From Verrucomicrobiota bacterium (GTDB lineage: Bacteria > Verrucomicrobiota > Verrucomicrobiia > Verrucomicrobiales > Verrucomicrobiaceae), in contig JAPLUN010000414.1 of the NCBI GenBank assembly GCA_026397715.1, forward strand, positions 1-64,000: 64,000 bases of DNA, in the 5' to 3' direction. Both the position numbers and the translations under genes were made by a program. How positions within the stretch are numbered: the stretch's first letter is position 1; the number at the start of each line of letters is the position of its first letter. Below, in pieces: positions 2,030 through 63,769 of this stretch. Below the pieces are notes generated by a model, which saw only the letters and a list, made by a program, of their open reading frames with translations, ran no database searches and had not been told where the DNA came from.

Positions 2030-4170
2030 GCGCACCCATTGGCAGCCAGACCGCAAACATCGCGATGACCGCCGGGATGCCGCCCAAGCACATCTCGCGC
2101 ACGCGTCGCGCCACGTTTTTCTCCCTTGTCGGCCTGGGCACCATCGTGGGTGCGTGGCTGTCCTACATCTTCCTTTCGGAAAACGGCATGCGGCTATCCG
2201 AATGGGGGCTGCTGCTGGTGTTCATCCCGCTGTACTACCAGCTCAACGTGGGCTTTTGGACGGCGCTCTTCGGCGTGTGGCTGATGAACCGCCCGAAGCC
2301 GGACTCGCTCAGCCTGTGGCTTTCCCTGACGGCGGATGACTATGAGCAGCCCATCACGGCCAGCACGGCCATTATCCTGCCGGTGTTCAATGAGGATGTG
2401 ACGCGCGTGTATGAAGGTCTGCGCTCCATCTACCTGTCGCTGGAGGCCACGGGGCAGGCGGCGAACTTTGACTTTTTCATCCTGAGCGATTCCGACAAGG
2501 CGAGCCAGTGGATCGAAGAAGAAACCGCGTGGCTGGAGCTGTGCCGACAGCTCAAGGCCTTTGGCCGCATCTTTTACCGCCGCCGCCGCAAGCAGATCAA
2601 CCGCAAGAGCGGCAACGTCAGCGACTTCTGCCGCCGCTGGGGCAAGCGCTACCGCTACATGATCGTGCTGGATGCGGACAGCCTGATGTCCGGCGCGCTG
2701 CTCACCAGCCTGGTGCGCATCATGGAGAAAAATCCCGCCATCGGCATCGTGCAGACGTTTCCGAAGCAGATCGCTGCGGACACGCTGCTGGGGCGCGTGA
2801 TGCAGTTTGCGCAGGCGCTCTACGGTCCGCCCTTCATGGCGGGGCTGGACTACTGGCAGTGCGGCGAGGCGAACTTCTGGGGGCACAACGCCATCCTGCG
2901 CCTGGCGCCATTCATTGAGCACTGCGCGCTGCCGCCGCTGCCGGCCAATGCGCCCTTTGGCGGGCACATTCTCAGCCATGACTTTGTGGAGGCTGCGCTC
3001 ATGCGCAAAGCCGGCTACGCTGTAAGGCTGCTGCCCACCACGCGTGGCAGCTATGAGGAAGGACCGCCCACGCTGGTGGACATGCTCAAGCGTGACCGCC
3101 GCTGGTGCCAGGGCAACATGCAGCATCTCTGGCTGCTGTTTGCCAAAGGCTGGCACCCGATGAGCCGCATCAATTTCCTGCACGGCATCCTCAGCTACGT
3201 GAGCTCGCTGCTGTGGTTCCTCTTCCTGGTGCTGGCCACGCTGCTGGCCGCCACACCGACGCCGCACGTGCAGCCGCAGGCCATCCTGGCGGAGCACATT
3301 CTGCTGGCCGTCACGGCGATGCTGATCTTCCTGCCCAAGACGGTGATCTTGCTGGATGAAGTCATCACGGGGCGACTGTTCAAGCCGCTGAAACTGCGCT
3401 TCCTCACGTTCTTCAGCAGCTTGCTGGACACGGTGGTCTTCACGCTGATGGCACCGGTGCTGATGATCTTCCATTCGCGCTTCGTCGTTTACACGATCGT
3501 GGGCAAAAGCGTGAGCTGGGTGACCCAGCGCCGCAAGATCGACGGCGGCATCAACTGGAGCGAAATCATCTTCACCTTCCTCAGCGTGACGCTGCTGGGC
3601 CTTGCCTGGGGGGTGATTGGCTGGTTTGTCTCGAAGGCGTTCCTGATCTGGATCAGCCCCATCCTGTTCTCCCTGGTCGTTTCCATCCTCGTGGCGGCCA
3701 TGGTTTCCAGCGGGCGGAGCGGACGGCGCCTGGGCCTCTTCCTCACGCCGGAGGAGCATGAGCCGCCGACGGTGCTGAAAAACATGCAGCAAAATTTGGA
3801 GGAGATCAAAGACCGCATCCAGCTCTCTCCCGAGCTGGAGCGCCACTACGGTCTCATGCAGGTGTGCCTGGACCCTTATGTGAATGGTCTGCACGTCAGC
3901 CTGCTGCGCCGTCGCCGCACGATCGAGGTGTCATCCGCCTACCTCAAGGAGATCAGCCACCGTCTGATCACGCAGGGGCCGCAGACGCTGAACGCGCAGG
4001 AGTTGAAGGCGCTGATGCACGACACGGACACCGTGACCAATCTGCACTACCGCATCTGGAGCGCCGCGGACCATGAGCTCGCGCCGTTCTGGGCCACGGC
4101 CATCCGCCAGTATAACCTCGCCTCCACCAGCCCGTTTGCCCACACTTTGGCGAAGCAGGAAGTGGAGTGA
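2026..4170 (+). CDS. opgH: Glucans biosynthesis glucosyltransferase MdoH/OpgH
   Basis: 714 aa; GT2 motifs 'ILPVFNEDVTRVYEGL', 'VLDADSLMSG', 'DRRWCQGN'; multiple TM segments. Confidence 0.9.
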   Translation: MSAPIGSQTANIAMTAGMPPKHISRTRRATFFSLVGLGTIVGAWLSYIFLSENGMRLSEWGLLLVFIPLYYQLNVGFWTALFGVWLMNRPKPDSLSLWLSLTADDYEQPITASTAIILPVFNEDVTRVYEGLRSIYLSLEATGQAANFDFFILSDSDKASQWIEEETAWLELCRQLKAFGRIFYRRRRKQINRKSGNVSDFCRRWGKRYRYMIVLDADSLMSGALLTSLVRIMEKNPAIGIVQTFPKQIAADTLLGRVMQFAQALYGPPFMAGLDYWQCGEANFWGHNAILRLAPFIEHCALPPLPANAPFGGHILSHDFVEAALMRKAGYAVRLLPTTRGSYEEGPPTLVDMLKRDRRWCQGNMQHLWLLFAKGWHPMSRINFLHGILSYVSSLLWFLFLVLATLLAATPTPHVQPQAILAEHILLAVTAMLIFLPKTVILLDEVITGRLFKPLKLRFLTFFSSLLDTVVFTLMAPVLMIFHSRFVVYTIVGKSVSWVTQRRKIDGGINWSEIIFTFLSVTLLGLAWGVIGWFVSKAFLIWISPILFSLVVSILVAAMVSSGRSGRRLGLFLTPEEHEPPTVLKNMQQNLEEIKDRIQLSPELERHYGLMQVCLDPYVNGLHVSLLRRRRTIEVSSAYLKEISHRLITQGPQTLNAQELKALMHDTDTVTNLHYRIWSAADHELAPFWATAIRQYNLASTSPFAHTLAKQEVE

Positions 4171-4193
4171 AGCCGGGCGGTCTGGTAGCTCTT

Positions 4194-4403
4194 TTAGAAG
4201 CCGCCAAAGCTGCCGCCAAAGCCACCCCCATTGCCGCCGCCACGGTAACCCCCGACATTGCCTCGAGTATTGTGGTGGTGGCCGTAACTGCTGTGATGGG
4301 ACGGACGGCGGTATGACCTGCCGTAGCCATACGGCGCGACGCATGAGCTTACTGAGCTCAGCGTGAGGATGGCCGTGAAGAGAACGAGGAGTTTTGTTTT
4401 CAT
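4194..4403 (-). CDS. Small Gly/His-rich lipoprotein (paralog 1)
   Basis: MKTKLLVLFTAILTLSSVSSC lipobox then Gly/Tyr/His-rich tail; near-identical signal peptide to 4576..4902 and 9374..9619. Confidence 0.7.
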   Translation of the reverse strand: MKTKLLVLFTAILTLSSVSSCVAPYGYGRSYRRPSHHSSYGHHHNTRGNVGGYRGGGNGGGFGGSFGGF

Positions 4404-4515
4404 TTTTTCAATGGTTTTGACGCCGCCAGCGCAGGTCTATTCAAGGCATCGGCCGTCCATCCGCTTTTGACGAAGCATGAGATGAAGGATGCGCGTCCGC
4501 CTATCAGGCAACGAA

Positions 4516-4537
4516 CAGCGCCCCGAAAAGGGCGCTG
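4516..4537 (-). terminator. Hairpin downstream of lipoprotein paralog 2
   Basis: CAGCGCCC-CGAAAA-GGGCGCTG, 8-bp perfect stem, ~40 nt past the stop of the minus-strand CDS. Confidence 0.5.
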
Positions 4538-4575
4538 CGAGTTGAAGTTTCAGAGGCAGCTGGGATTCAGCGGTC

Positions 4576-4902
4576 TTAGTGGTGATGGCCACCGAAGCCG
4601 CCCATGAGGCCGCCATGGAAGCCGCCACCGCCAAAGCCGCCTACATGAGTGTAGCCGCCGTGGTAACCGCCAAGGCCGGGACGATACCCGGTAAAGCCAG
4701 GACGACCGTAGTAGGGGGCACGGTAGCCACCGTAGGCGTAGCCGGGGCGGGCGTAGTAGTTATTGTAAACGCCGTAGCCGCCAAAGCCGCCGTAATAGGG
4801 GCGGTAGTAACCGGTGCTGGCGTAGCCATAGGGCACGACGCAGGAACTGAGCGATCCAAGAGTGATGACCGCTGTGAGAAGAAGTATGAGTTTTGTTTTC
4901 AT
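4576..4902 (-). CDS. Gly/Tyr-rich lipoprotein (paralog 2)
   Basis: MKTKLILLLTAVITLGSLSSC lipobox; GYGYNNYYARPGYAYGGY-type tail ending GGHHH. Confidence 0.75.
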   Translation of the reverse strand: MKTKLILLLTAVITLGSLSSCVVPYGYASTGYYRPYYGGFGGYGVYNNYYARPGYAYGGYRAPYYGRPGFTGYRPGLGGYHGGYTHVGGFGGGGFHGGLMGGFGGHHH

Positions 4903-5036
4903 AATCACTGAGGGGTTCATTGGGATTCGACGCTGCTACTTGGGCTGTATTCAAGAAATTGCAGCCCTATGACAGGATCGGGGCCGTTGGATTCCTGCTT
5001 CCCATTCGCCGCCGTTCATGCCAGCATCACTTCTCC

Positions 5037-6131
5037 ATGAAGTCTATTCTCAGCCTTGCGTTCGTATTTGCCTGTACCTGCACCTCCTTCGCGCAGAGAA
5101 GCGCGCCGATCATTTCACCGGACGTTCAGGACGATCACAGCGTCATCTTCCGCCTGCGGGCTCCCAAATCTCAAAACGTGGCTTTGCGCGGCCAGTGGCA
5201 AAAAGAACCCGTGCCGCTGACGAAGGACGCCGAGGGCCTGTGGAGCCTGACCGTGCCTGATGTGCCCGCTGGTGTGTGGGAGTACAGCTTCGTGGTCGAT
5301 GACCTCGCGATGATCGACCCTGTCAATCCGGCGCAGAAGCCGCAGCGCAATCCCACCTCCAGCATTCTGCACATTCCGGGCACGCCGCCGAATCCATGGG
5401 ACTTTCAGGATGTGCCGCACGGCACTGTGCACCAGCACACCTACCTGTCCAAGGCGCTCAGCAAGCAGCGCAGCGCGTGGGTGTACACACCGCCGGGTTA
5501 TGAGGACGGTAAGCAGAAGGAATATCCGCTTTTCGTCCTGCAGCATGGCTCTGGTGATCGCCAGGAAACCTGGGTGGTGCATGGCAAAGCACACTGGATT
5601 CTCGACAACCTCATCGCCGCCGGCAAAGCGAAGCCGATGGTCATCCTCATGATTGATGGCCATCCGCTCGGTCAGATCCCGCGTGAGATGGCTGATCGCC
5701 GCGCTCTCTCGCTGGCCGCGTTTAAAAACGAACTTTTCCAGGATGCCATTCCGCTGGTGGAGAGTCATTACCGCGTGTCAGCGGATCGCACTCAACGCGC
5801 CATCGCCGGACTCAGCATGGGCGGCTGGCAGGCGCTCAGTATTGGCATGACCAATCAAGACCGCTTTGCGTGGATCGCCTCCTTCAGCGGCGCGGTGGAT
5901 GAGAATGAAATCAAACCTGCACTTGATGATGCCGCCGGCACGAACGCCAAACTTAAGCTGCTGTGGATCGCGTGTGGTGAGAAAGACTTTCTGCTGGAGC
6001 GCAACAACCAGCTCATTGCCAAACTCAAGGCCAGTGGCGTGAATTACGAATGGCATGAAACGCCGGGAGACCACTCCTGGCCGGTGTGGCGGAATTACCT
6101 CACGGATTTCGCGCCGAAGTTGTTTCGCTGA
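5037..6131 (+). CDS. Secreted esterase, enterochelin-esterase-like alpha/beta hydrolase with N-terminal early-set/CBM48-like domain
   Basis: Signal peptide MKSILSLAFVFACTCTSFAQ; 'AIAGLSMGGWQALSIG' nucleophile elbow; C-terminal 'ETPGDHSWPVWRNYL'. Confidence 0.85.
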   Translation: MKSILSLAFVFACTCTSFAQRSAPIISPDVQDDHSVIFRLRAPKSQNVALRGQWQKEPVPLTKDAEGLWSLTVPDVPAGVWEYSFVVDDLAMIDPVNPAQKPQRNPTSSILHIPGTPPNPWDFQDVPHGTVHQHTYLSKALSKQRSAWVYTPPGYEDGKQKEYPLFVLQHGSGDRQETWVVHGKAHWILDNLIAAGKAKPMVILMIDGHPLGQIPREMADRRALSLAAFKNELFQDAIPLVESHYRVSADRTQRAIAGLSMGGWQALSIGMTNQDRFAWIASFSGAVDENEIKPALDDAAGTNAKLKLLWIACGEKDFLLERNNQLIAKLKASGVNYEWHETPGDHSWPVWRNYLTDFAPKLFR

Positions 6132-26122: not shown

Positions 26123-29100
26123 CTAGCGCTGCGGTGCTCTGACCCAAAGAGTCTGTTGCATGCGGTTGCGGCTTCCCAAGCTGCGTTGGAGAGCCTTTTC
26201 TGATTCGGCGCTGAGTTCTCCATGGAGACGGTTCAATGGAAATGGCATTTCGATTGTCGGAGCGGAAGGTTTGGCCGGTGCTTGCCGTCTGTACTGGATC
26301 GGTTGTGGCCGGAAGGTCGGCAGTTGTGCATCCTGTGGCGTGATCGTGGGATGCAGCGTTTGCAAGGCTACATCCAGCCTTGGGACGGTGGGCTTATTTA
26401 AGGTAAGTCCATCCTCGTTGTATTCAGGTGCCAGTTTGCCCGCAGGTCGTGGTTTCTGGGATTCATCTGGCGCGATCTTGAAGATCTTCGGCTGCTTGCG
26501 CCACACCCGCACCTCCACCCTTTCGGCGTTGAGAGTGGCGAGGTGCATCATGCAGTCGCCCAGCCCCTCGTAGGTGTAGTCAAAGGTGCCCGGCTTTTCG
26601 GGCCAGGGCTGCTGCTTTTCGTAGTGTTTTCGCAAGGTCTCACCCAGAGACACCGAGAGCCAGCGCTGCGCCTCCTCGCGCGGCGCGGTGAAGCGAATGA
26701 TCCCTGCGGCATATGCCGGGCTGCCGGGCTTAGAGAGAATCGCTTCGGCTGGCAGATCGGCCAGAAACCCTTTTCTCTTGAGGAGTTTCCATTGGCTCGC
26801 GAGCTGGGGGTCCATGATGATGTCGGCATCGATTGCAGCAGTCGGCGGGCGAAGCGTTTGCGGTGCGACGTCCATAGCGGGGGAATAATCCGGCGCGACC
26901 AGGTTGGACGGTTTCACCTGAGCCTGGGAGACGATGATGATCAGGTGCTCGCCGTCAGAGCTGAGAATCGAGATCGCGCATTGGCCAGCCGCCACATAGG
27001 TGCGCTTAAACGCCTCCGGTGGTTCAGGCCACTGGAGAGACGCTTCATCCACGTTTTTCGACCTGTAGACTGAGGCGAGCAACCACCGATGTCCTGCCGC
27101 GCGCGAAACATCAAAGCGGAACTGTGGACTGCTTTTCACACGCCGTTCTTCGCTTTCCCCCGTGTCAAACGGTCGGGCCTCTGCGGGCAGATCCGCTAGA
27201 AGTCCGGCCCGTTTCAAAGCAGCCCATTGGTTTGCCAGAGCAGGCTGCATGCGTATGGCGGCATCGCTTTGCTGACGGAGCTGAGCCTGGTCTTTGGGCT
27301 TGGCTGGTGCCGGTGGTTTTTGGTCAGGTGCCCCGGTCTTCAACTCCATCACGAGCACCTGATCAAGGGTTGAGAAGTCAACGGCTGGTTCAACGATGGC
27401 TTCTCCGGAAACATCCCCGGTTTTAAATTGCTTCACGCGCCCCAAGAGCAGATCGACCGGGAAGACTCCGCCTTCACCGGAGGAGTGCACGCTGGCACCA
27501 ACGTTGATTTTGGCGAAGCGGCTGAGGAAGCGGAGATGCAGTTGTGGCTGCGCGGCCTGTGCCGTACACTTACCGGACAGTATCCCTTGCTCAAGCGTCC
27601 CTTCCACCTTGGCCGAGACAAGGCAGAGTTCATCGGTGAGGAGAATCACCTTCGTCGTGTGTGGGTCTGGCGTGGATGTCTTCCCCACCAAACCGACCGA
27701 TGTGATCACGGGGCTGTTGGCGACGATGCCGTCGAGCGAACCTTTGTCGATGATCATGCTGTGAGACGAAGCGCTGGAGCTTGGGCTGATCACCTTGGCA
27801 GTTGTTTTGTTGAGGATTTGAGGCGGTTTGGGGCCGACCTTGGTTTTCTTGCTCCCTTCTTCCGTGCTTGATTGCGATGGTTGATAGACCCCGCTGGCCC
27901 GAAACTCGACTCGGCCGTTTTCCAAGTTTCTTGGCACCGGAAATACCCATTCAATCTGTCTCTTCTCGCCAATCTCTCCCAGCCGCGAGCGCAATTGCAA
28001 CGCCTCGGCCATGCCAGCCGCTTCGCCGACGATCGTCAGCTGACCGTTGTCGATTTTGCATTCCTTAAAAGAGATCTTAGGCTCTGCTTCGAGCAGTTTG
28101 ATTTCCCGTGAAATTTCAGCGGCATTGAAATCAAACGGCGCCTGCGCAGCCGCACTTTTTTCCTCCACCGGCTTCACCTCTCCTGATCCATCCGCAGGCA
28201 GTGCCAGTGCTTCTTCCACGACACGCCGGACCATCGGCCCCAGCTTGTCCGGGACGAGAGTGCTGTCGGGTGATGTTTCATCCACATAAAGGACGAATGC
28301 GAGCGCAGGCTTGTCGGCAGGAGCATAGCCGGCCATCCAGTAATGATGCGTGAAGACCTCCGAATGCGGGCCTTTGGCGCCCGTGGCGTAGCTGTCCGCC
28401 AGCGCGGCGATTTGTGCCTTCGAGCTCGTGAGGGAGCGGGCCCATGGCTGGGGATGAATCACTGCCTCCCGCAAGGCGCTGCGGACACGCGCAAGGCCTT
28501 CTGGCAGGTCGGGCAGGGTGTTGAGGTCCAGCCTCGGCCGGCCAGCGCTCTTCTTCGTCAGGGAGGGTTCCCACACCTTGCCATTGGCGAGCGCGGAATA
28601 GAGTGCCGCCATCTGCAGGATGGTGGCAGGGCTTCCACGACCTGAGGCAAAGTCTGTGGTGATGTCGTTGAGCTGACGCTGGCTCGAGCGCGTTTTCGCG
28701 AGCTCTTCCATTGTTGGCAGCAGGGGCGGCGACTTGATGCCAAAGATGTTGGTGCCTAGCTGCAGCCCGAGATCCTCCGCCATGCTGAAGAGGGCTGGAT
28801 AACCCACCTCCGTGCCAAGCTGGAAAAAGTAGCTGGAACAGCCCTTTGCCAGCGCTTGCTCCAGGTTCAGGGGCCCATGGGCAGCGCCCTCCCGCAGGCT
28901 GGTGCGGCATATCCTCGTCACACTGCCATAGCGGACGCCACCGCCAGACCCACGGGTGAGGGGCGTGCATGCGTAGGTGCCGGGAGTTTTTCCCGCCCGC
29001 AGGGCCGCGAGCGCGGTGAAAGGCTGAAAGACTGCCCCGGGGGCGCTGCGGGCAGAGCTGACACGGTCCAGCAAAGGAGTGCCGATATCCTTGAGGTAGC

Positions 29101-30553
29101 TATCCCAAATCTGGAAACTGACGGACGGCACAAAAAGATTCGGGTCATAACCGGGCAGCGAAACGGAGGCCAGAGTCTCACCCGTACGTGGATCGAGCAC
29201 CACGACAGCGCCGCGCTCCACGCCGCCATCCTTCATCGCCTGCAAGGTGAGCGCCTGAATGCGGGCGTCGAGTGTGAGGGAGACGTCCTTGCCCGCTTTC
29301 AGTGCGGCATCCTCCTTCTTTTCCATCCCGGCACCCCCATGCAGCCTTGCGTCCTCCTCATCAGGTTTGCGGGTATATCCCACCACATGCGCCGCCAGTG
29401 TCTTGAGGGGATAAACCCGCACCTTCTCCTTCGTGCTCTCCGCCAGCACGACGCCATTGCGGTCGAGGATACGGCCGCGCAGGGTGGGGCCTTCAATGGC
29501 GTGCAGCATGGCCATGGGGAGGGTGATGAGAAGGGCGCACGCGGTGAGTCCGGCCAGCCAGCGCAGGGTGAGGCCTTCGCGGCGGAGCGTGGGATCGAGG
29601 ATGGCCTTCACGCGGGCTTCGACGGGGGCGCAGCGGGTGATGGTGAGAGCGCAGAGCGACAGCCCGGGTGCGAGGCGATTGTGGCGGCTGAGGTCGAGCA
29701 GGGACTGCGCGTAGTCGCTGGCACGCACACCGTGGCGCAGCACGGCATCGTCGCAGGCGCGTTCCTGATCGGCACGGAGCTGGCGGAAGGTCAGCCAGAC
29801 GAGGGGATTGAACCAATGCAGGGCCTTCACCCATTGCGCGGCCCACAGGGCGAGAGGATCGCCGCGCTTCAAATGGGCGAGTTCGTGGAGCAGGACGCCG
29901 CGTTGTTTTTCAGGGCTCCAGGTTTCAAATCCCGCAGGCAGCAGCAGGCGTGGTTTCAGAACTCCCCAGACCATGGGTACGGAATCGTTGGGGCCGATGA
30001 GCAAGAGAGGGATGCGCCGCAGTCCAAGCTCATGTGCGGCCTGAATCAGCAGGGCGCATTCACCCGGACGCAGGGAGGCTTCCAAACGATGCAAGCGCCA
30101 GGCGCTGCGCCCGAGGCGCAGCAACAGCAGGCCGGCGATGAGCAGCCACACCGCGGGCAAAGTGCCTACCACATCCTGCCATGAAATATTCCAAGAGAAG
30201 GAGGGCGGTGTCACGATTTGCGAAGACGTGGGAATGACAGGTCTGGCGGTGGGCACAGTGACAGGGAGGTCTGTGGATGGCAGGACGGATGCGGCACTTT
30301 CCTGTACGGACTCCGGTTCCATCACCGGCCACTCCAGACCGACGTCCGTTTGCGGAAGCACATGCCATGCAGGCAGAGCCCACATCGCCAGGGGAAGAAC
30401 GGCCAGCGTGGCGATGGCGGTGATCCACAGGGCGTAGCGGTGCGCGGCGGCTGTGCGGCGCAAAGCCAAGCCGAGGAGCAGCGCCACAAGCAGCACCGCC
30501 GCACCTTTGAGTGTGGTGTGGGAAAGGAGATCGAGCAACGGTGTCGTGTTCAT
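26123..30553 (-). CDS. BlaR1-like M56 peptidase fused to degenerate PBP transpeptidase-like domain, MreC-like domain and tandem C-terminal repeats
   Basis: M56: 'LLHELAHLKRGDPLALWAAQWVKALHWFNPLVW'; PBP-like: 'LRGRILDRNGVVLAES', 'SAPGAVFQPFTALAAL', 'YFFQLGTEVGYPALFSMAEDLGL'; MreC-like: 'DKGSLDGIVANSPVITSVGLVGKTSTPDPHTTKVILLTD...GEGGVFPVDLLLGRV'. Confidence 0.85.
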   Translation of the reverse strand: MNTTPLLDLLSHTTLKGAAVLLVALLLGLALRRTAAAHRYALWITAIATLAVLPLAMWALPAWHVLPQTDVGLEWPVMEPESVQESAASVLPSTDLPVTVPTARPVIPTSSQIVTPPSFSWNISWQDVVGTLPAVWLLIAGLLLLRLGRSAWRLHRLEASLRPGECALLIQAAHELGLRRIPLLLIGPNDSVPMVWGVLKPRLLLPAGFETWSPEKQRGVLLHELAHLKRGDPLALWAAQWVKALHWFNPLVWLTFRQLRADQERACDDAVLRHGVRASDYAQSLLDLSRHNRLAPGLSLCALTITRCAPVEARVKAILDPTLRREGLTLRWLAGLTACALLITLPMAMLHAIEGPTLRGRILDRNGVVLAESTKEKVRVYPLKTLAAHVVGYTRKPDEEDARLHGGAGMEKKEDAALKAGKDVSLTLDARIQALTLQAMKDGGVERGAVVVLDPRTGETLASVSLPGYDPNLFVPSVSFQIWDSYLKDIGTPLLDRVSSARSAPGAVFQPFTALAALRAGKTPGTYACTPLTRGSGGGVRYGSVTRICRTSLREGAAHGPLNLEQALAKGCSSYFFQLGTEVGYPALFSMAEDLGLQLGTNIFGIKSPPLLPTMEELAKTRSSQRQLNDITTDFASGRGSPATILQMAALYSALANGKVWEPSLTKKSAGRPRLDLNTLPDLPEGLARVRSALREAVIHPQPWARSLTSSKAQIAALADSYATGAKGPHSEVFTHHYWMAGYAPADKPALAFVLYVDETSPDSTLVPDKLGPMVRRVVEEALALPADGSGEVKPVEEKSAAAQAPFDFNAAEISREIKLLEAEPKISFKECKIDNGQLTIVGEAAGMAEALQLRSRLGEIGEKRQIEWVFPVPRNLENGRVEFRASGVYQPSQSSTEEGSKKTKVGPKPPQILNKTTAKVISPSSSASSHSMIIDKGSLDGIVANSPVITSVGLVGKTSTPDPHTTKVILLTDELCLVSAKVEGTLEQGILSGKCTAQAAQPQLHLRFLSRFAKINVGASVHSSGEGGVFPVDLLLGRVKQFKTGDVSGEAIVEPAVDFSTLDQVLVMELKTGAPDQKPPAPAKPKDQAQLRQQSDAAIRMQPALANQWAALKRAGLLADLPAEARPFDTGESEERRVKSSPQFRFDVSRAAGHRWLLASVYRSKNVDEASLQWPEPPEAFKRTYVAAGQCAISILSSDGEHLIIIVSQAQVKPSNLVAPDYSPAMDVAPQTLRPPTAAIDADIIMDPQLASQWKLLKRKGFLADLPAEAILSKPGSPAYAAGIIRFTAPREEAQRWLSVSLGETLRKHYEKQQPWPEKPGTFDYTYEGLGDCMMHLATLNAERVEVRVWRKQPKIFKIAPDESQKPRPAGKLAPEYNEDGLTLNKPTVPRLDVALQTLHPTITPQDAQLPTFRPQPIQYRRQAPAKPSAPTIEMPFPLNRLHGELSAESEKALQRSLGSRNRMQQTLWVRAPQR

Positions 30554-30980: not shown

Positions 30981-31138
30981 GAGGCGTGCATGGCAAGTCC
31001 AAACAAGAAAAATTTAACGAATCAGGTCATCATAGACGAGCTGCATCCTCAATCCGCCCCAACAGGGCATCAGTTTGACTCTTCGCCGGGTGCTGAACGC
31101 GCTACCTGCGCCATGCATTCTGAACCACGCTCAATCAC

Positions 31139-32588: not shown

Positions 32589-34139
32589 CTACTTTTTGGA
32601 GTCTGTTTTTGCGAGTTCGTACTGCCAGGTCCAGTCGCCAAGGTAGGACGGGCTTCTCATGGGGACGCCGTTCTTTTTGATCTCGCCACCGTCGTCTTTA
32701 CCGTCCATGCCCACGCACCACAGCAGGTAGCGGCCTGCGGGCGTGGTGCGGTAGCGCATCGCCTTGCCATCGCAGGGATCCAGAGGAACAGCGGTGGCAA
32801 ATTCGGGGACGAGCTCCTGCAGGGCTGCAGGGTAGCGGGCGTGCTTCAAATAAAAACGCTCCAGTGCGATGGCTGCCAGCGCCTGACGTTCACGTGCTTG
32901 AACCAAGAAAACTATCTCCGTGACGCTGGCGAGGGCAGGGACCACCAGGCGGGCCATGATGTAGTCTGGATGCAGCACCAGATTATGCTTCTCTTTCATT
33001 TCGGTGTTCACCCCCTCGGCCGATTTGACTGCGGCAGCTATCCCGCCTTTGCGGAGGGGCTCGATCATGTGCTTCCATTCCTGCTCGGCGATCACGCTCT
33101 TCCAGTGGTCAAACAGGCCGCTCGGCAGCAGAAAGGCGCCGCGGTACGCAGTTTGCTGTTGGTTGGCAAAGAGTGAGGCCAGATCCTCCTTCGTCTTTTT
33201 TCTTCCTGCGGCCACGTCTTGCATATATTCCATAACATTCAGGCCAAAGGCCATCTCCCCCCGGCATGCCTGCAGCAGGGCCTTGTCCAGATCATGCGTA
33301 CTCAGCACCTGGTGCAGCAGGCGCAGGTCCGCATCGGCAAAGGTTCTTTTCTGCAGGCCCAGCCAGATGCCCTCATTAACCTGAGCCTCGGTAGTGTTTC
33401 CCACCAGAAGGCCGATCAGGAGGGGCTCGCTTTCGCAGGCAAGGCCGATTTTCTCCGCTGCGAGCAGGCTGCGGGCGGCATCCGCCCCCTGCCCTGCATC
33501 GATGGCTGCACGCGCACGCAGGCACAAAGCACGCACCAGAGGCTGCGCTGCGGTGTAATGCCGGAGAGACAGGCTGAAGAGCATCTCGGGCAGCTCCCGC
33601 TCCCGCAGTCCGGGGGTGAACATGGCCTGGCTGCGCTGGGGGGCCAGATCGGCGAGCTGCTTGAGGACTGGGAATTTCACGTCCAGCGCCGCCAGAATCT
33701 CCTTGCCGGGGGCGGAGGATACAGCTGGGAGGTCGAGATACTTTGTCTCGCGCAGAAACTTTGCCCAGGCCTGCATGTCGGGAATCTCGCCCTTGTCCAC
33801 CCCGCTTGAAGCAGGTGCTTTCCCCTCCAGCTTCAAGGCTGCGAGGGCCTTGCGTTTCGCCCCGGGCGCTCCTTTGGCTTCGTCATGATCGACGGTTTCG
33901 GTGATGCCGTCGAGAGGCTCAATGGCCAGCAGGTTTTGCGCCGCCGGCGGCGTCTCGGGCAGCAGGCTGAGGTGGTCGAAGGTTTCGCCTTCGTGTTCGA
34001 TCATGGCCTTCACCGCGGCCCAGCGGCGGCGGCCGCTCCAGTTTGTCCAGACATAGAGCAGGACGACAAGGGTGACGAGGGTGATGACGAAACAGAGGAG
34101 GATGCGGACGAAGCGTTTGGAAAGGAGGCGGCGGATCAT
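32589..34139 (-). CDS. Hypothetical membrane-anchored protein
   Basis: 516-aa ORF, N-terminal TM 'FVRILLCFVITLVTLVVLLYVWTNW'; downstream of ECF sigma gene. Confidence 0.8.
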   Translation of the reverse strand: MIRRLLSKRFVRILLCFVITLVTLVVLLYVWTNWSGRRRWAAVKAMIEHEGETFDHLSLLPETPPAAQNLLAIEPLDGITETVDHDEAKGAPGAKRKALAALKLEGKAPASSGVDKGEIPDMQAWAKFLRETKYLDLPAVSSAPGKEILAALDVKFPVLKQLADLAPQRSQAMFTPGLRERELPEMLFSLSLRHYTAAQPLVRALCLRARAAIDAGQGADAARSLLAAEKIGLACESEPLLIGLLVGNTTEAQVNEGIWLGLQKRTFADADLRLLHQVLSTHDLDKALLQACRGEMAFGLNVMEYMQDVAAGRKKTKEDLASLFANQQQTAYRGAFLLPSGLFDHWKSVIAEQEWKHMIEPLRKGGIAAAVKSAEGVNTEMKEKHNLVLHPDYIMARLVVPALASVTEIVFLVQARERQALAAIALERFYLKHARYPAALQELVPEFATAVPLDPCDGKAMRYRTTPAGRYLLWCVGMDGKDDGGEIKKNGVPMRSPSYLGDWTWQYELAKTDSKK

Positions 34140-40667: not shown

Positions 40668-41480
40668 ATGTCCGCTCCCCCGTCCCGTTCCCTCCGTACG
40701 ATTTGCCTCGTAGCGCTGGGGCTGTGCCTCGGTGGAGTGCCGGCTGGGGCCGATGAACCCACCTTGGACGATGGGGCCCCCTCCATCATCCTAGGAGATC
40801 AGACCCCGGCGGATTTCCTCGACCTGATCGGCCAGCGCACGAAAGCGCGCTGGCGCCTGCTGTTTCGCCCGCCACCGCCCACACCGCCCACGGATCGGGG
40901 GCGTGCCGCCCTGCTTCTCGGCGGCCTGATGGCAGACAGCTTCCTCATCTGGCAGGCGGGGGATTCCCAGCAGTTCCGCAACAACAACCAGGAAGTGCTC
41001 AGCTACTGCCGCATGCTGGGTCTGGGTGAAAAACTCCTGCCCCGCCTCATGGCCCAGGGCAAAATGGCGGAAAGCAATGAGTGGAAGGAGCTTCGAAGCG
41101 AGATCGTGGACAGCCACCAGGTGCTGATCCGCATGCTGCGGGAGCAGAGGGACGACGACCTGGCGGTCCTGATCGATCTGGGCCTCTGGCTGCGACTGCT
41201 GGAGATCGTCTCCAGCGTGGTGGTGGAAAATGACACGGTGGAAGTGCGGCCTTTGTGCATCGGCTCACCCGTGATCCTCCAGGAAATCCGTGATGACTAC
41301 AACCGGCTCGGCATGCCCAAGCATGAAGAACCCATGATCAAGCACATCGGCGACGCCATTGAAGAAATCAGCTCTCTCTGGCGCAGCGCCACCCCCACCG
41401 CCCCCACGGCGGAGCAGGTCACCAAGACTCACGAGAAGCTCAAGGAGATCATGCAGGTGATGCTGGAAAAGCAGCTGTAA
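40668..41480 (+). CDS. Hypothetical secreted protein
   Basis: 270-aa ORF with signal peptide. Confidence 0.75.
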   Translation: MSAPPSRSLRTICLVALGLCLGGVPAGADEPTLDDGAPSIILGDQTPADFLDLIGQRTKARWRLLFRPPPPTPPTDRGRAALLLGGLMADSFLIWQAGDSQQFRNNNQEVLSYCRMLGLGEKLLPRLMAQGKMAESNEWKELRSEIVDSHQVLIRMLREQRDDDLAVLIDLGLWLRLLEIVSSVVVENDTVEVRPLCIGSPVILQEIRDDYNRLGMPKHEEPMIKHIGDAIEEISSLWRSATPTAPTAEQVTKTHEKLKEIMQVMLEKQL

Positions 41481-42710: not shown

Positions 42711-45700
42711 TCACTTCGCCAGCGCCTCGCGGATCAGCGCTGCTTTGTCGAGCTTCAGGATGACGGGCGCGCCCTCAGACGAGATGTCGATGACCAAAGC
42801 GTACACGGCATCCGGGGTCACGACGAAACCCTGGGTATTACCCTTGGTGACGTCGATGCAGCCACAGTACGTATTGGTAGGCTTGTGAATGGCCAGCAGC
42901 CTGCCGTAGGTGGCGTGGCCTCCCATGGGGTCCTTTTCCTGCGGTGCCATTTCCTGCCCCAGGATCCAGAGCCAGTCGCCATCGCTGACTGCCAGGGGGA
43001 CGTTCACATCGATCCGGACATCTTCGGGAAAACGGAGGGTCTGGGGCTGCCGTGGCACCGGCGGTCCGGCTGCGGGGACGGGGTTCAATGACACGCTCTC
43101 CTTGTTCAGTATCCACAGGCCACGCTCATCCGCCCACATGCCGCAGACGACGCCCTGAGAGGCCACGGGGTTGGGCTGCCGGGTGCGGATCTTTTTGCTG
43201 GTATCGTGCGTGTAGAGTTCATCGCCGCCCTTGAGCGATTGATACAGGCAGTACATCTGGGAATCAAACGACGTCAGTTGCGTGATTTGCTTCATGGGCA
43301 GCGGCTTGTTGTTCATGTCCGTGGCTACGCTGCGCCAGCCTTTGGCGGCACTCCATGCGGCCAGCATCGGCTTGTCCGCTGCGCCCTTGCCTGCCACATA
43401 GACCTCGTTTCCTACCAGCGCGGCATGGGAGACATGCCCAAACGGCAGCCCGTCCTGATCGGTGAACCGGCTGTACTTCTTGGTGGCCTGGTCGAGCCTG
43501 CCGATGCCATAGACCGGTCCGCCGACCCACAGGCTGTCCGGGGTCTTGAGCAGGACGCTCAGATCCCCCGTGATCTTCTGCGGGAAAGGGGGGACAGGGG
43601 TAAACTTCTGCGTCTGCGTGTCCCAGTCCGCCACCATGGTGTGCTGCTGGTCATTCAGATAGCAGGTCAAAGCGACCACGGCCTGGGTGCTGCTGGCGCT
43701 GCTGGCGGCCAGCTGGAACTGGGGCAGATCCCATTCTTTCGGCACGGCCACCGGGACGATGGGTACCTGAAACCGTTTGGACTTTGTCTTCGGTTTCGCT
43801 AGTGCCTGCGGCTGGGGCGGCGCTCCCACGGGCAGCGGCTTTAGAACCGGCATCGGCGTCTCCACGAAATCCGGCGGCGGTCCGTTGTCCGACTGCGAGA
43901 TCATGGGAAGGTAGGTGCCGTTGTAGGCATCGGAGTAATACTTGCCCAGCAGCTTCATGGTGGCGGCAGCCTCTGCGCGTGTCCCCGCTTCATCATACCA
44001 GCGCAGCAGTTCGAGCCGCTTCTCCACGATCACTTCAGGAGACGGGTTCGCGTTCCAGCCTTCGAGCTTGTGCCACGCCATCTTGGCGAGTTCCAGTCGC
44101 TTCTCCAGCGGCAGGAAGAAGTCCAGATTCGGCTCCACAAACGAGGGCTGATAGGTTGTCCTTTCGGTGTATTCCGCCTGCGCCCGCAGAAGGCAGTCCG
44201 CTGTGGACGCGGCCAGAATGTCGCACCACTTGCGCCGCACCGTGCCGGGCACCCCTTGGGGAAAGCCGCGATTCCCTGCCTGCACGCTGCTATACAGTTC
44301 ATCATTGATCTGGAAGTGCCAGTCAGGCGGGGCGTCCTTGGCCGTCCTGAACACACTGAACAGCACCTTGTCGTTTTTTCTCACGGAATTCGCCACCTGG
44401 CGCAGGCCCTCCAGGCCGAAGCGGGAGAGATGCTCGTCCCAGTCGATCTTGCGACGCCACAGGTTCCAGAAGATACCGGCGGAGCTCTGCTCCTCATTCC
44501 CCACGCTCGGGAAATGCAGCTTGTCATACCAGCGCTGCAGCAGCCAGGTGGCGGCGATGGCGGCATCTTCCGGGGCAAAGAACCGTGCGGCCTCCAGCGA
44601 CCGCATGGTCAGCGCCCACCGCGTGACCAGCCACGGATTGCCCTGGTCCAGCCGCATGTCTGCCGGCTCCTGGGCAATCATGTCCTGGGCATGCTTGTAG
44701 AGGATGCGCGCCGCATTCAGGCGGTCATCGTTCCCCGGCTGTGGCCGTGGTTTTTCGAGCGCTGCGGTGATGAGCTGCGCGGCCAGCTTTTCCGCAGCGG
44801 CCTCCATCTCCGACTGCTTCGTCTCAATGCTGAATGTCTGTGTTTCCACGCCGCCGCTCCACAGTTCCAGCACGAGGCGAACGGGCATTTCCGCGAAGGG
44901 TATCCCGGGAGCACCCGTCTCCTCGCACCAGCCCCAGAGGTAGTGGTCGGCCACGCCCTTCCAGGCTTCCCCATTGCCCTGGGAGAGACCGCTGACAGCC
45001 AGCTCGGTTTCATGCGCTGCCTCGTCACTGCCTTGGAAATTCAAAACGCGGGCCTCCTTCCCCGCCGCGCCCCGGTAAACCGCCCGCAACAAGGCCGGCA
45101 CCTTGACGTCCAGCCGGTTGGTCCGCGCGGTGCGGTTGCCGATGAACAAGGGGGCAAAGACCCGCTGAGAACCCACGACTGCGAGCCGCGCACGGGCTTC
45201 ATCAATGGCCTCCCGTGCTGCTGCCGCCGCCTCTTTCAGGTGCGGCGCAGTCACCTCTAGTGGCAGGCCAGTCGGCTGCACCAGCCGCAGCCTGCGCACC
45301 GCCAGCACATCCCCCCGATGCGCCTCCACCACCCGCAGCGTCAGCTCGCGGCCCAGCCCCTCATTCATTTCCAGGGTACCGGTGACCAGCAGGTCCGCCT
45401 TCACCCACTGGCCGATGCCCATGCTTTTCCCTGGCGAGAGCAGGCCTGCGGCGCTGTGCACCAGTTCCGCCTCCGCCTTTTCGACCTCCGCACGCTCCAC
45501 CCAGCGCAGGCCCTCAATGTCTTGCAGCCCGGCCTGCAGCGCTAGGCCAAAGTCCCGCGCCGCCTCCACGCTTGGGTACCACGCGTCGTTATGAATCACA
45601 AAAGGCAGTGCCGCAGCCGTGACCGCAGGCAGCGCGTTTTTGTTTTGGCCTGCCACTGAGGCAGGCGTTTGGGGAGCTTCCGCCTCGGCTTCGGTCAGCA

Positions 45701-47096
45701 TCATGGCATTCGCCGAAGACTTGAGACCCGCCTGCTCCAGCCAGGCCACGGTCTCCTTCTGCTGGTGCTGCCGGGCGAGATCCAGCGCATTGCGGCCGTG
45801 GTGATCTTCCGGCTCCGTACGCGCACCGGCCTTGACCAGACGCTCCACCAAGGCGGTGCGTCCCAGCATCGCGGCCAGCATCAGAGGCGTGTGCCCCTGG
45901 CTGTTCTGCGCCGAAAGGCCTGCCTTGTGCTTGAGGTAATACTCCACCGCTTCGCTGTGCCCGGCCATCACGGCGTGGTGCAGCTGCGTGAACCGCGCAT
46001 CGTCCCCGCAGTTCAGGTGGCCGCCTTCGTCCGCGTACTGGTTCAGCCGCTCGATGACCTCCACATGGCCCCCGGCTGCTGCGGCAAACAGCACGCAGTG
46101 CATGGCTGGATAGAACGAAGGAAAATGCGCCTTCAGTTCCTGGTCCACCGCCGCCAGATCCCCAAGCTGCGCTGCCTTTGCCAGCGTCAAAACCGGGTCC
46201 TTGCTGGCGATGTCCACGCCCTTGCCCGCCAGTGTCTGCAATGTCTCGGCATTGCCCCACTTCTGCACTGTGGGCAGCCATTCCGAAAGAGTGCGCGGCA
46301 GCGCGACCCCTGCTTGCAGGAAGAACCGAAACGCAGGCTCTTTGCCGTAGTGAACGGCATAGCGCAGGGCGTTCATCCCGCGTTTGTCCTCTGCATGAAC
46401 ATCCGCGCCCAGGGAGATCAAGCGCTTGATCACCCCCATGTTCCCAAACAGCGAGGCATGCAGCAGCGGTGTGCTTTTGTCCTGGCACTGGGTGTCCACC
46501 GGAATGCCCCGCTTCACCAGCAGCTCCACCACATCCGCGCTGCTCACCCGGGCTGCATAGACCAGCACGGGCCACAATCCTTTACTCTTCCCCCGCACCT
46601 CTCCTTTCGGGTCGGCCTTCGCATTCAGCAGTACTTCCACCAGCTGCGGCGAGCCGCTCTTGAGCGCCTGCGCAAAGGCATCCGTCTCCGCGAGGGTGCC
46701 CTCCTCCAGCCTGGCCCCCGCCTTCAGCAGCAGTTCAGCGGACTCTGCATCGCCGGCACGACAGGCGAGCGCCAAGGCGCTGATGCCATCGAAGTCACGT
46801 GCATTGGGGTCCGCCCCGGCCGCCAGCAGATCGGCGATGATGTGTTTTTGAAAGGTATTCAGCGCATGCATCAGCGGTGTGTAGCCCCGCTTGTCCCGCG
46901 CATTGATGGAGACGCCCTCGTCAAGGTAGCGGCGCACGTAGCCGATTTTGCCGATGCAAGCCGCCTGCCAGATGCCGTCGGGTTTCCAGTATTCGCGAAA
47001 CTGGGCGGACACCTGCAGGGGCAGCAGGGCCGCCATGCCGAGCGCCAGGAAGACGTATCTTCGCCCGCAAAAGCGGGCGTGGGGGACTGCTCTCAT
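42711..47096 (-). CDS. Large ankyrin-repeat protein with CsgG-like middle region and propeller-like C-terminus
   Basis: 1461 aa; repeated 'GxTPLMxAxxxGxxxxVxxLLxxGA' units; 'GLRWVERAEVEKAEAEL...KADLLVTGTLE'; C-terminal 'LWVGGPVYGIGRLDQATKKYSRFTDQDGLPFGHVSHAALVGNEVYVAG'. Confidence 0.82.
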   Translation of the reverse strand: MRAVPHARFCGRRYVFLALGMAALLPLQVSAQFREYWKPDGIWQAACIGKIGYVRRYLDEGVSINARDKRGYTPLMHALNTFQKHIIADLLAAGADPNARDFDGISALALACRAGDAESAELLLKAGARLEEGTLAETDAFAQALKSGSPQLVEVLLNAKADPKGEVRGKSKGLWPVLVYAARVSSADVVELLVKRGIPVDTQCQDKSTPLLHASLFGNMGVIKRLISLGADVHAEDKRGMNALRYAVHYGKEPAFRFFLQAGVALPRTLSEWLPTVQKWGNAETLQTLAGKGVDIASKDPVLTLAKAAQLGDLAAVDQELKAHFPSFYPAMHCVLFAAAAGGHVEVIERLNQYADEGGHLNCGDDARFTQLHHAVMAGHSEAVEYYLKHKAGLSAQNSQGHTPLMLAAMLGRTALVERLVKAGARTEPEDHHGRNALDLARQHQQKETVAWLEQAGLKSSANAMMLTEAEAEAPQTPASVAGQNKNALPAVTAAALPFVIHNDAWYPSVEAARDFGLALQAGLQDIEGLRWVERAEVEKAEAELVHSAAGLLSPGKSMGIGQWVKADLLVTGTLEMNEGLGRELTLRVVEAHRGDVLAVRRLRLVQPTGLPLEVTAPHLKEAAAAAREAIDEARARLAVVGSQRVFAPLFIGNRTARTNRLDVKVPALLRAVYRGAAGKEARVLNFQGSDEAAHETELAVSGLSQGNGEAWKGVADHYLWGWCEETGAPGIPFAEMPVRLVLELWSGGVETQTFSIETKQSEMEAAAEKLAAQLITAALEKPRPQPGNDDRLNAARILYKHAQDMIAQEPADMRLDQGNPWLVTRWALTMRSLEAARFFAPEDAAIAATWLLQRWYDKLHFPSVGNEEQSSAGIFWNLWRRKIDWDEHLSRFGLEGLRQVANSVRKNDKVLFSVFRTAKDAPPDWHFQINDELYSSVQAGNRGFPQGVPGTVRRKWCDILAASTADCLLRAQAEYTERTTYQPSFVEPNLDFFLPLEKRLELAKMAWHKLEGWNANPSPEVIVEKRLELLRWYDEAGTRAEAAATMKLLGKYYSDAYNGTYLPMISQSDNGPPPDFVETPMPVLKPLPVGAPPQPQALAKPKTKSKRFQVPIVPVAVPKEWDLPQFQLAASSASSTQAVVALTCYLNDQQHTMVADWDTQTQKFTPVPPFPQKITGDLSVLLKTPDSLWVGGPVYGIGRLDQATKKYSRFTDQDGLPFGHVSHAALVGNEVYVAGKGAADKPMLAAWSAAKGWRSVATDMNNKPLPMKQITQLTSFDSQMYCLYQSLKGGDELYTHDTSKKIRTRQPNPVASQGVVCGMWADERGLWILNKESVSLNPVPAAGPPVPRQPQTLRFPEDVRIDVNVPLAVSDGDWLWILGQEMAPQEKDPMGGHATYGRLLAIHKPTNTYCGCIDVTKGNTQGFVVTPDAVYALVIDISSEGAPVILKLDKAALIREALAK

Positions 47097-47126
47097 AGTC
47101 GAAGTAGATAGATGAAAAAAGGGCCG

Positions 47127-48056
47127 CTAGGGTTTGAGGGTGACGGCAAAGAACTGCTCCACCAGGCGCTCCGCCACGCTGCGACCGGCCACTTGCAGGG
47201 CGGACTTGGCGGCGATATTTTCCGCCAGATCAATCGCGCTGGAGGTCTGGCGATCGACCCAGATTTTTTCACCTTTCGCATCGGCCACTTTCACCTCCAG
47301 CCTGGCCTTGCAAAAGATCAGCTGCCCGCGCTGCCCGGCACGCTCGCTGAAGGCCTCCCCCTCGACGATGTAGTCCGCAGGCCCGCTTTCCACCAGCTTA
47401 AAACCCAGCTGCTGCAGCACACGCTGTATTTCCGTCTGCGCCGCAGGATCTGGCACACGGCGGGTGAGGTGCTGCTCGGGAATCTGCACACGTATGCTCG
47501 GCCTTTCCTTGCCAGCGGGCAGCAGCGCCTTGAGCCGGGCGATCATGGCGTCCCAGGTCTCGACTTCGGCGGTGAAGGCGGACTTGGGATCGCGCAGGCG
47601 CTCGGCAATTTGTCCCGCAAGCTTTTTCGCGGCGTCAGCGAGACCCGGCTCGCCCGCGAACTCCGCAGAGACCGACACCACCCGGCTGGTCTCCACGCCG
47701 ATCAATTTCACCACCGCCATGCGTTTGCCGCTGACCTCGATCAGCCGTCCGGTGATGAGCACCTGAGCTCCGACGATGTGCCCGATCTTGGCGGCGGTGT
47801 CTGGCTGAATCGTTCCCGTCAGGGTCAGCTCCTGCTCGCCGAGCACCTTGTCGATTTCCAAACGTTCCACCAGCTGGAGTTCGGGATGCTCTGAAAGCTG
47901 CACCCCCAGCAGCAGGGCCAGCTTTTCCGATTCAGGCTCGATGTCCTTCTGCGCACCAAAACCCAGCACCGCGACACTCAAGGGCGCTGGCTCTTCGGCT
48001 GCCAGAAAGGCGCATGCGTGAAGGAGGGAGAGCAGGAAGACGAGGCTCGTTTTCAT
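47127..48056 (-). CDS. CsgG-like secreted protein
   Basis: Signal peptide MKTSLVFLLSLLHACAFLAAEE; 'SVAVLGFGAQKD', 'LQLVERLEIDKVLGEQEL', 'GAQVLITGRLIEVSGKRMAVVKLIGVETSRVV'. Confidence 0.8.
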   Translation of the reverse strand: MKTSLVFLLSLLHACAFLAAEEPAPLSVAVLGFGAQKDIEPESEKLALLLGVQLSEHPELQLVERLEIDKVLGEQELTLTGTIQPDTAAKIGHIVGAQVLITGRLIEVSGKRMAVVKLIGVETSRVVSVSAEFAGEPGLADAAKKLAGQIAERLRDPKSAFTAEVETWDAMIARLKALLPAGKERPSIRVQIPEQHLTRRVPDPAAQTEIQRVLQQLGFKLVESGPADYIVEGEAFSERAGQRGQLIFCKARLEVKVADAKGEKIWVDRQTSSAIDLAENIAAKSALQVAGRSVAERLVEQFFAVTLKP

Positions 48057-63500: not shown

Positions 63501-63769
63501 GCCTGCTGGGCGGGGCTCTGCTGCATCAGAAAAAGTACACCGAGGCAGGACCGCTGCTGCAATCTGGTTACGAGGGGTTGAATGCGCACGCTGGCATGCT
63601 TGCGGTTCAGGATCGCTTTCGGCTCCGCGACGCCATTGTGCGTCTTGCTCAATTCAACGATGCCACCGGCAATGCTGTTCAAGCGGCCCAGTGGCGGCAG
63701 AAACTCGCCGAGTTTGATCAGCCACGGGTTGTCTCAAGCACCCCGAAACTCAGCATGAGCACGAGGTAG
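60509..63769 (+). CDS. Ser/Thr protein kinase-like protein with TM and C-terminal TPR repeats; atypical catalytic motifs
   Basis: 'VTIKIIAAG', 'VVHGDLQPSNLLV', 'VTDFGIAMA', 'DARTDIYSLGMLLYEMITG'; repeated 'LGPDHPDTFVTITVLAAVCDDQEKHLEAE'-type TPRs. Confidence 0.9.
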   Translation: MSHDPARVEQLFNEALERANHIERHVFLTGACGNDTALWNEVWDRLRNHPGNAGQQRRTRGIRVPKAPGHGTLEEKPGDMIGPYRLLQIIEDSTNSTMWMAERNARVAEFVTIKIIAAGANDFLIRYEAQKHGLALLDHPDIARPHACGMTPGGRPYLVTELLHGTPITQFCDDQKLSLLTRVRLFIQVCDAIHHAHQKGVVHGDLQPSNLLVRWGDQGQPVLKVTDFGIAMAMNHALVTPTGQLRAPAAYLSPEHVAAKAIDARTDIYSLGMLLYEMITGRLPIPTPRDAAEHLNEVKKVVCETLVEKPSALLRSLPKAQITGLALNRKLETATYPELLEQHFDWVVMRALEKRPESRYPSLDAMENDFLPYLKEAAAQEEKPAVQGTALGSFISDHRGLFALAAMLVLLVAGGMAVMGWLLVKEKQEEVRVTVKQKAESYSMTSRFLQEMFAFLTPETVKGKDTTLVKGMLDAAVEHLDELTDNAESGARAQETIGLTYLALSEPLDAQKQFQGALEKRKLALGGAHRDTLRSMRQLATAMDAEGRYVDAETLLRRTLSAQQKALGPDHPDTFVTITVLAAVCDDQEKHLEAETLFLNLYQVQKRVLGPDHLDTFATLGNLANSYTQQGKHAEAMKRRGEQVDGMRRVLGASDPRTLITMNIAAQACEKAGMPSDAEKLYFGALEVLKKSLGAEHPDTLVQADQVALMLGRRGRHVEALRLHHECLDAKRRMLGPKDPQTLLSMKNLANEYEAQGRHAESEASQQQVLETMKTAFPPEHPEIIAQMDTVAQVYDTHGRYAEATKLRQESLVVKRRVLGATHVQTLRSMQQLASSLDADGKHAQATTLQLETLEIMKTAYGPGDPDVLAQMHAMAAMHDRHGDHAQAEKIYQDLLQIQQRVLGYEHVETLATLSGLAATQRHAGRLDEAEALYQQVLDLQRKRTPADTAAVAAASADLGSLWLQTGLTAKAEPLLRDCLEQCIKHQPEHWLRFNVESLLGGALLHQKKYTEAGPLLQSGYEGLNAHAGMLAVQDRFRLRDAIVRLAQFNDATGNAVQAAQWRQKLAEFDQPRVVSSTPKLSMSTR

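Follow-up and report, generated by a model that had tools for sequence, protein, structure and literature searches.

Can a receptor built like BlaR1 still sense once its penicillin-binding protein (PBP) domain can no longer be acylated? This question is raised by a 1476-amino-acid protein encoded on the minus strand (from its ATG at 30553 to its stop at 26123) of a 64,000-nucleotide stretch of DNA, positions 1 to 64,000 of contig JAPLUN010000414.1 (assembly GCA_026397715.1), referred to here as the window. Its genome (G000) belongs to freshwater Verrucomicrobia of the Prosthecobacter/Verrucomicrobiaceae group. BlaR1 and MecR1 are the standard example of a receptor that arose from an enzyme reacting with penicillin, with a class-D-like sensor that becomes acylated. 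For the window protein, we see about an even chance that it is a BlaR1-type transducer with a non-acylatable PBP2 (MrdA) receptor, behind which PilN-like, MreC and repeat modules have been added.

A putative PBP2-derived receptor without active-site motifs

An initial annotation had described one uninterrupted frame holding an M56 segment with a HELAH motif, PBP-like and MreC-like segments and a duplicated tail, next to a BlaI repressor gene. All of these elements were recovered, with blaI directly upstream; the frame runs on the minus strand, the plus strand of 26123..30553 containing many stops, and the domain search gave significant homology for both the PBP and the MreC parts (Table 1). 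The Pfam Transpeptidase match spanned residues 448-761 (E 1.9e-24), and remnants of PBP_dimer/PBP_dimer_2 were found at residues 359-438. Between the PBP and MreC parts sits a small domain, confident in the predicted structure, whose homologue is the C-terminal region of a PilN-family protein in genome G454 (32% identity, E 4e-15). The tail is a true duplication of a unit of ~125 amino acids (36% identity over 129 amino acids, E 6e-19), which matched no Pfam family and gave no convincing fold relative (best E 0.16, from a model with a predicted local distance difference test score, pLDDT, of 73).

The protease motif is intact. Residues H223, E224, H227 and E264 were invariant in 10 orthologs, and HELAH varied only at its fourth position. 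The putative extracellular loop EL1 was hypervariable, with a mean pairwise identity of 30% versus 73-77% on each flank.

The profile search (TIGR03423, E 3.6e-58), the best sequence relatives in the PDB and the fold all placed the PBP part nearest to PBP2/MrdA: in a structure model of a 771-amino-acid segment starting near the last transmembrane (TM) helix, the transpeptidase domain had a pLDDT mostly of 80-95, and Foldseek returned 7kis as the best match (E 3e-28), BlaR1 being absent among the best 50. Unlike PBP2/MrdA, the window sensor is fused to a protease and lacks the SXXK, SXN and KTG motifs, which were intact in 19 of 19 native mrdA genes examined, the second of them always as SCN. 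Among 18 tabulated fusions of an M56 protease with a PBP, S-x-x-K was kept in four (G015, G228, G300, G037) and all three motifs in G037 only; three fusions seen later were read from the sequence, with SSIK present in G454 and no S-x-x-K in G443 and G439. Mean identity in the motif windows versus the rest of the domain was 0.49 versus 0.48 in fused copies, compared with 0.78 versus 0.69 in native mrdA. Judged from its sequence, the PBP part is a PBP2/MrdA pseudo-enzyme and, since its three motifs are lost, BlaR1-style acylation would not be available to it. Another possible pseudo-PBP is encoded elsewhere in the same genome (L141, contig C564), with a Transpeptidase domain, a degenerate SXXK (TAFL) and no KTG.

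These data bear directly on whether the protein could be a true BlaR1, that is a beta-lactam sensor acylated on its PBP2-like domain and inducing resistance. The order of M56 protease and PBP fold together with BlaI is that of BlaR1, and some relatives keep reactive motifs (STFK/SCN/KTG in G037, SXXK and KTG in G015 and G454). The window protein, however, has neither the nucleophile, nor its Lys, nor the KTG Lys; it scored 76.6 bits against the cut-off of 400 of the NCBIfam model blaR1_generic (NF000326), which matched only the protease part (residues 160-347); and its operon contains no beta-lactamase gene and no second PBP gene. We consider this explanation most improbable. What the protein shares with BlaR1/MecR1 is an M56 domain with an invariant zinc motif, an adjoining BlaI-type repressor and a predicted C-terminal extracytoplasmic PBP-fold sensor; unlike them, it carries a class-B PBP2 copy with dead motifs, adds PilN-like, MreC and repeat modules, and has a predicted operator at its own promoter only. 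By analogy, the system would work like BlaR1, but by sensor lineage, motifs and model score it falls outside the BlaR1 family. A Clostridium locus (L062) taken as a classical BlaR1 yardstick had an unrelated sensor region, and no description of M56-PBP2 or M56-MreC fusions was found in the open full-text literature, the scope of that search.

The head of PBP2 is also absent: RGxILDRNG abuts YPLKxLAAHVxGY, and the more than 100 residues that separate them in native mrdA are gone. In the Helicobacter pylori PBP2-MreC complex, this head supplies the hydrophobic zipper for MreC (PMC5626683). Because the MreC-binding head is missing, the known mode of docking is not open to the fused MreC, and an intramolecular complex as in H. 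pylori was rejected. The proposal that the PBP2 and MreC parts act jointly as in the elongasome is therefore not supported. MreC is also recent and restricted to two genomes.

Distribution, module capture and apparent cassette exchange

The order M56-PBP-MreC recurred as a single 1346-amino-acid open reading frame (ORF) in the metagenome-assembled genome G002 and in no further genome, and the M56-PBP core was found in one frame in 12 of 68 family genomes. Because the same order is seen in G002 and the core in 12 genomes, the fusion is not an assembly chimera, and this explanation was rejected. The locus context was mostly kept: blaI and a convergent esterase gene were present in all checked Prosthecobacter loci, with rnpA-yidC-jag beside them wherever the fetched contig extended far enough. 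A plasmid-borne or mobile system was rejected as well, PLSDB giving no match at E 1e-30. In a thirteenth genome, G454, the contig covers no more than the last TM helix and what follows it (L184, 1725-4115, PBP and PilN-like domain with no M56 upstream), which reflects either a deletion or an assembly break. Close M56/blaI relatives in G016 (L049) and G237 (L185) have no PBP module and carry tail-type units directly behind the protease.

Among 240 Verrucomicrobiales genomes scanned with PF04085, G000 and G002 alone had a genuine second MreC; the other signals were a sub-threshold match in G009 and a split gene in G450. The window module matched PDB MreC chains (E 1.5e-13), and its barrel core shared 62% identity with the resident mreC of G000, a gene sharing the mre operon with mrdA. 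In a phylogeny of the MreC core, the copies from the two fusions grouped as a single clade (support 1.0) that fell among Prosthecobacter MreCs, the latter position being modestly supported. Unlike native MreC, the module has no TM helix or coiled coil of its own, the alignment to native mreC beginning past the coiled coil; it stands behind a headless PBP2 copy and diverges far faster, although under constraint (G000 versus G002: nonsynonymous divergence dN 0.17, synonymous divergence dS 0.50, dN/dS about 0.34). Its slot (about residues 890-1080) is empty in some orthologs, and is taken by a duplicated PilN-like domain in G001 and by tail-like units in G012 and G032. On these sequence comparisons, MreC is best described as a late, single passenger copied from a Prosthecobacter-type mreC and not general to the system. 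In the fusion of G443 (L182, 1493-4798), an FGE-sulfatase (SUMF1-like) domain lies behind the PBP in the C-terminal slot.

Fusions of an M56 protease with a class-B PBP, in the same order, were also found in G292, G303, G266, G115, G228, G300, G037 and G049, and occur on at least four separate M56 backgrounds in Verrucomicrobiales. No MreC was present in the other Verrucomicrobiales fusions (L076-L082, L084, L182, L183); G266 and G115 have a full PBP2 pedestal. The PBP of G037 was the sister of its own mrdA (support 100) and its protease grouped with those of G115 and G266 (support 100), a disagreement which indicates that PBP modules were captured or replaced more than once; the presence of PBP fusions on several M56 backgrounds argues that a PBP2 fold has proved useful as a receptor more than once. 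In the window genome itself, M56 and blaI genes number nine each and share one set of nine contigs, and its paralogous M56 sensors carry Secretin/STN-like, CarboxypepD_reg and coiled-coil modules. One of them (L172, contig C543, ORF 2458-5676) has Secretin (PF00263, E 3e-6) and STN-like (E 0.008) domains, again pieces of an envelope machine. A giant M56 protein is suggested in G050 (L035, contig C147, 50187-51257) by a match within an open frame of ~3800 amino acids.

The transpeptidase core had a history of its own. At fourfold sites, G000 and G002 were identical at 160 of 164 positions (98%) in residues 495-765 versus 143 of 243 (59%) in residues 1-480 (Fisher p 5e-22); their flanking genes showed ~90% DNA identity, and the same core was about 40% identical in DNA to all other orthologs. 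An older version of the same exchange pattern was seen for G030/G027 (p 8e-5), with a tree conflict in which the core joins G030 and G027 (support 100) and the protease joins G027 and G012 (support 100). The TRANSPEPTIDASE core thus behaves, as far as sequence patterns tell, as a cassette exchanged between species. Strain mixing in the assembly may account for the G000/G002 identity; it is unlikely for G030/G027, as the data sets are unrelated.

Such exchange is compatible with an integrated decoy, in which dead copies of PBP2, MreC and PilN-like parts (secretin-like in the paralog), repeatedly captured and passed between species as cassettes, would be bait for attackers (antibiotics, toxins, phage proteins) or for machine failure, their engagement triggering the protease. 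The dead active site, the exchange and high divergence of core alleles, the variable module slot and the Secretin/STN-like paralog in the same genome all agree with this idea, which we nevertheless find distinctly unlikely: no attacker and no defence-gene output were found, and fast divergence also fits relaxed constraint. The receptor might also simply be decaying, with MreC insertion and hypervariability as neutral drift. In favour of this, the motifs disappeared on separate occasions, G016 and G237 have no PBP, and the content of the slot varies. Against decay stand the long open frames in 12 genomes, the dN/dS of the fused MreC, purifying selection on the G030/G027 core (dN 0.05-0.08, dS 0.18-0.45, dN/dS about 0.2), and the conservation of C529/C549/C572 among orthologs and of blaI and its operator, so that decay appears very unlikely.

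The blaI gene, its predicted operator and the proposed mechanism

Directly upstream of the sensor gene, blaI was present in 10 of 10 Prosthecobacter-group fusions, in which it is 77-98% identical, and also in G016, G292, G303, G228 and G300. Its promoter contains a palindrome of consensus CGYTA-N6-TARCG, and the exact pattern CGYTAW6TARCG had one match per genome in 8 of 8 genomes, always at the own blaI promoter. A scan for O1-like or relaxed sites returned scattered matches with 1-2 mismatches at control level, so that weak sites could remain. The downstream gene being convergent, the operon consists of blaI and the fusion. Since the predicted operator points only to its own promoter, control of cell-wall genes is unsupported, and the output may lie in weaker sites, in other protease targets or in the sensor acting as its own effector.

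The last of these options defines another explanation. The BlaI/M56 pair would regulate itself, and the induced periplasmic look-alike of PBP2, MreC and PilN would be a dominant or competing partner of the elongasome. An operator restricted to the own promoter, an operon of only two genes and modules that are copies of PBP2 and MreC favour this explanation. It is weakened by the missing MreC-binding head, by the restriction of MreC to two genomes and by the relaxed operators that could exist elsewhere, and we regard it as rather unlikely.

In the transducer that we favour, the M56 protease would face the cytoplasm and the C-terminal modules the periplasm, as in the topology of BlaR1, in which the protease in the cytoplasm is linked to an extracellular sensor cleft by way of EL1 and TM helices (PMC9834060). 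The pseudo-PBP2 fold would bind a ligand or a partner protein non-covalently, in a manner tuned by the added modules, and the last TM helix would shift; the protease thus activated would inactivate its dedicated BlaI and derepress the blaI-sensor operon in a positive autoregulation. Topology, binding, BlaI cleavage and derepression are inferred by analogy with BlaR1. The signal is likely to be a PBP2-type ligand or partner (stem peptide, SEDS/elongasome protein, inhibitor) rather than beta-lactam acylation, and a peptidoglycan-derived coactivator that acts on BlaI in the cytoplasm, like the one proposed in Bacillus licheniformis (PMC3305447), could add to it. Of the sensor of cell-wall or PBP status under BlaI that was first proposed, the BlaR1-like M56/BlaI pair with an elongasome-derived sensor (TIGR03423, mreC origin) is retained and the reporting of status by acylation is lost with the three motifs.

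Several observations weigh against this transducer. SXXK-like residues are kept in G015 and G454 of the Prosthecobacter group and in the distant G037, G228 and G300, for which reason acylation may persist in some lineages. The strict operator scan gave no gene beyond the operon in 8 of 8 genomes, and hence no wider BlaI regulon. Co-evolution of EL1 with the cassette was not seen, G000 and G002 sharing the core at 97% and EL1 at 36%.

Table 1. Features of the sensor locus in window coordinates (residues refer to the sensor protein).
Feature	Position	Strand	Basis
Candidate M56-pseudoPBP2-PilN-like-MreC-tail sensor/antirepressor	26123..30553	-	ORF and Pfam; 1476 aa
Peptidase_M56 domain, residues 12-317	29603..30520	-	PF05569, E 1.6e-40
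HELAH zinc motif, residues 223-227	29873..29887	-	ortholog comparison
Putative extracellular loop EL1, residues 71-125, hypervariable	30179..30343	-	pairwise identity
Putative last TM helix, residues 332-354, exporting the C-terminus	29492..29560	-	sequence; helix at model residues 2-24
Trimmed PBP2 N-terminal region, residues 356-415	29309..29488	-	RGxILDRNG joined to YPLKxLAAHVxGY
PBP2/MrdA-derived transpeptidase domain, residues 416-790, catalytically degenerate	28184..29308	-	PF00905; model; Foldseek
SXXK position, A507-V-F-Q510, nucleophile Ser and Lys lost	29024..29035	-	motif alignment
SXN position, G571-C-S573	28835..28843	-	motif alignment
KTG position, A719-D-S721; alternative register ATG; no Lys in either	28391..28399	-	motif alignment
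Transpeptidase core behaving as exchanged cassette, residues ~490-770	28244..29086	-	fourfold-site identity
PilN-like small alpha/beta domain, residues 804-890	27884..28144	-	homology and model
MreC barrel module, residues ~895-1080 (Pfam core 921-1069)	27314..27871	-	PF04085, E 1.4e-31
Tail repeat unit 1, residues 1090-1212, no known family	26918..27286	-	self-comparison
Tail repeat unit 2, residues 1220-1352, only in G000 and G027	26498..26896	-	self-comparison
blaI, BlaI/MecI-type (Penicillinase_R) repressor, 128 aa	30572..30958	-	PF03965, E 1.2e-21; 18 bp before sensor gene
Predicted BlaI operator O2, TTCGCTA-N6-TAGCGTA, ending at the blaI start codon	30959..30978	-	conserved in 11 upstream regions
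Degenerate second operator-like site O1 (CGTTAAATTTTTCTTG)	31004..31019	-	conserved upstream

Elsewhere in the window are found a 1461-amino-acid protein consisting mostly of ankyrin repeats (42711-47096, minus strand), a 1086-amino-acid Ser/Thr protein kinase with a long TPR array (60509-63769, plus strand) and three ORFs with no Pfam match (32589-34139, minus strand; 47112-47894 and 40668-41480, plus strand).

Possible exchangeable receptors from cell-wall enzymes

PBP2 ectodomains occur on several M56 backgrounds and most of them have lost the reactive site, so that PBP folds are apparently able to serve as receptors without acylation. In one lineage, a barrel was then acquired from mreC, which shares the mre operon with the gene for PBP2. 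Given the exchange of cassettes, ligand specificity can be tested through natural swaps. Taken together, these findings suggest that bacteria reuse degenerate copies of cell-wall enzymes as sensors that can be swapped. If it is true that the sensor reports the state of the elongasome, it would directly link transcription to a process about whose sensing little is understood.

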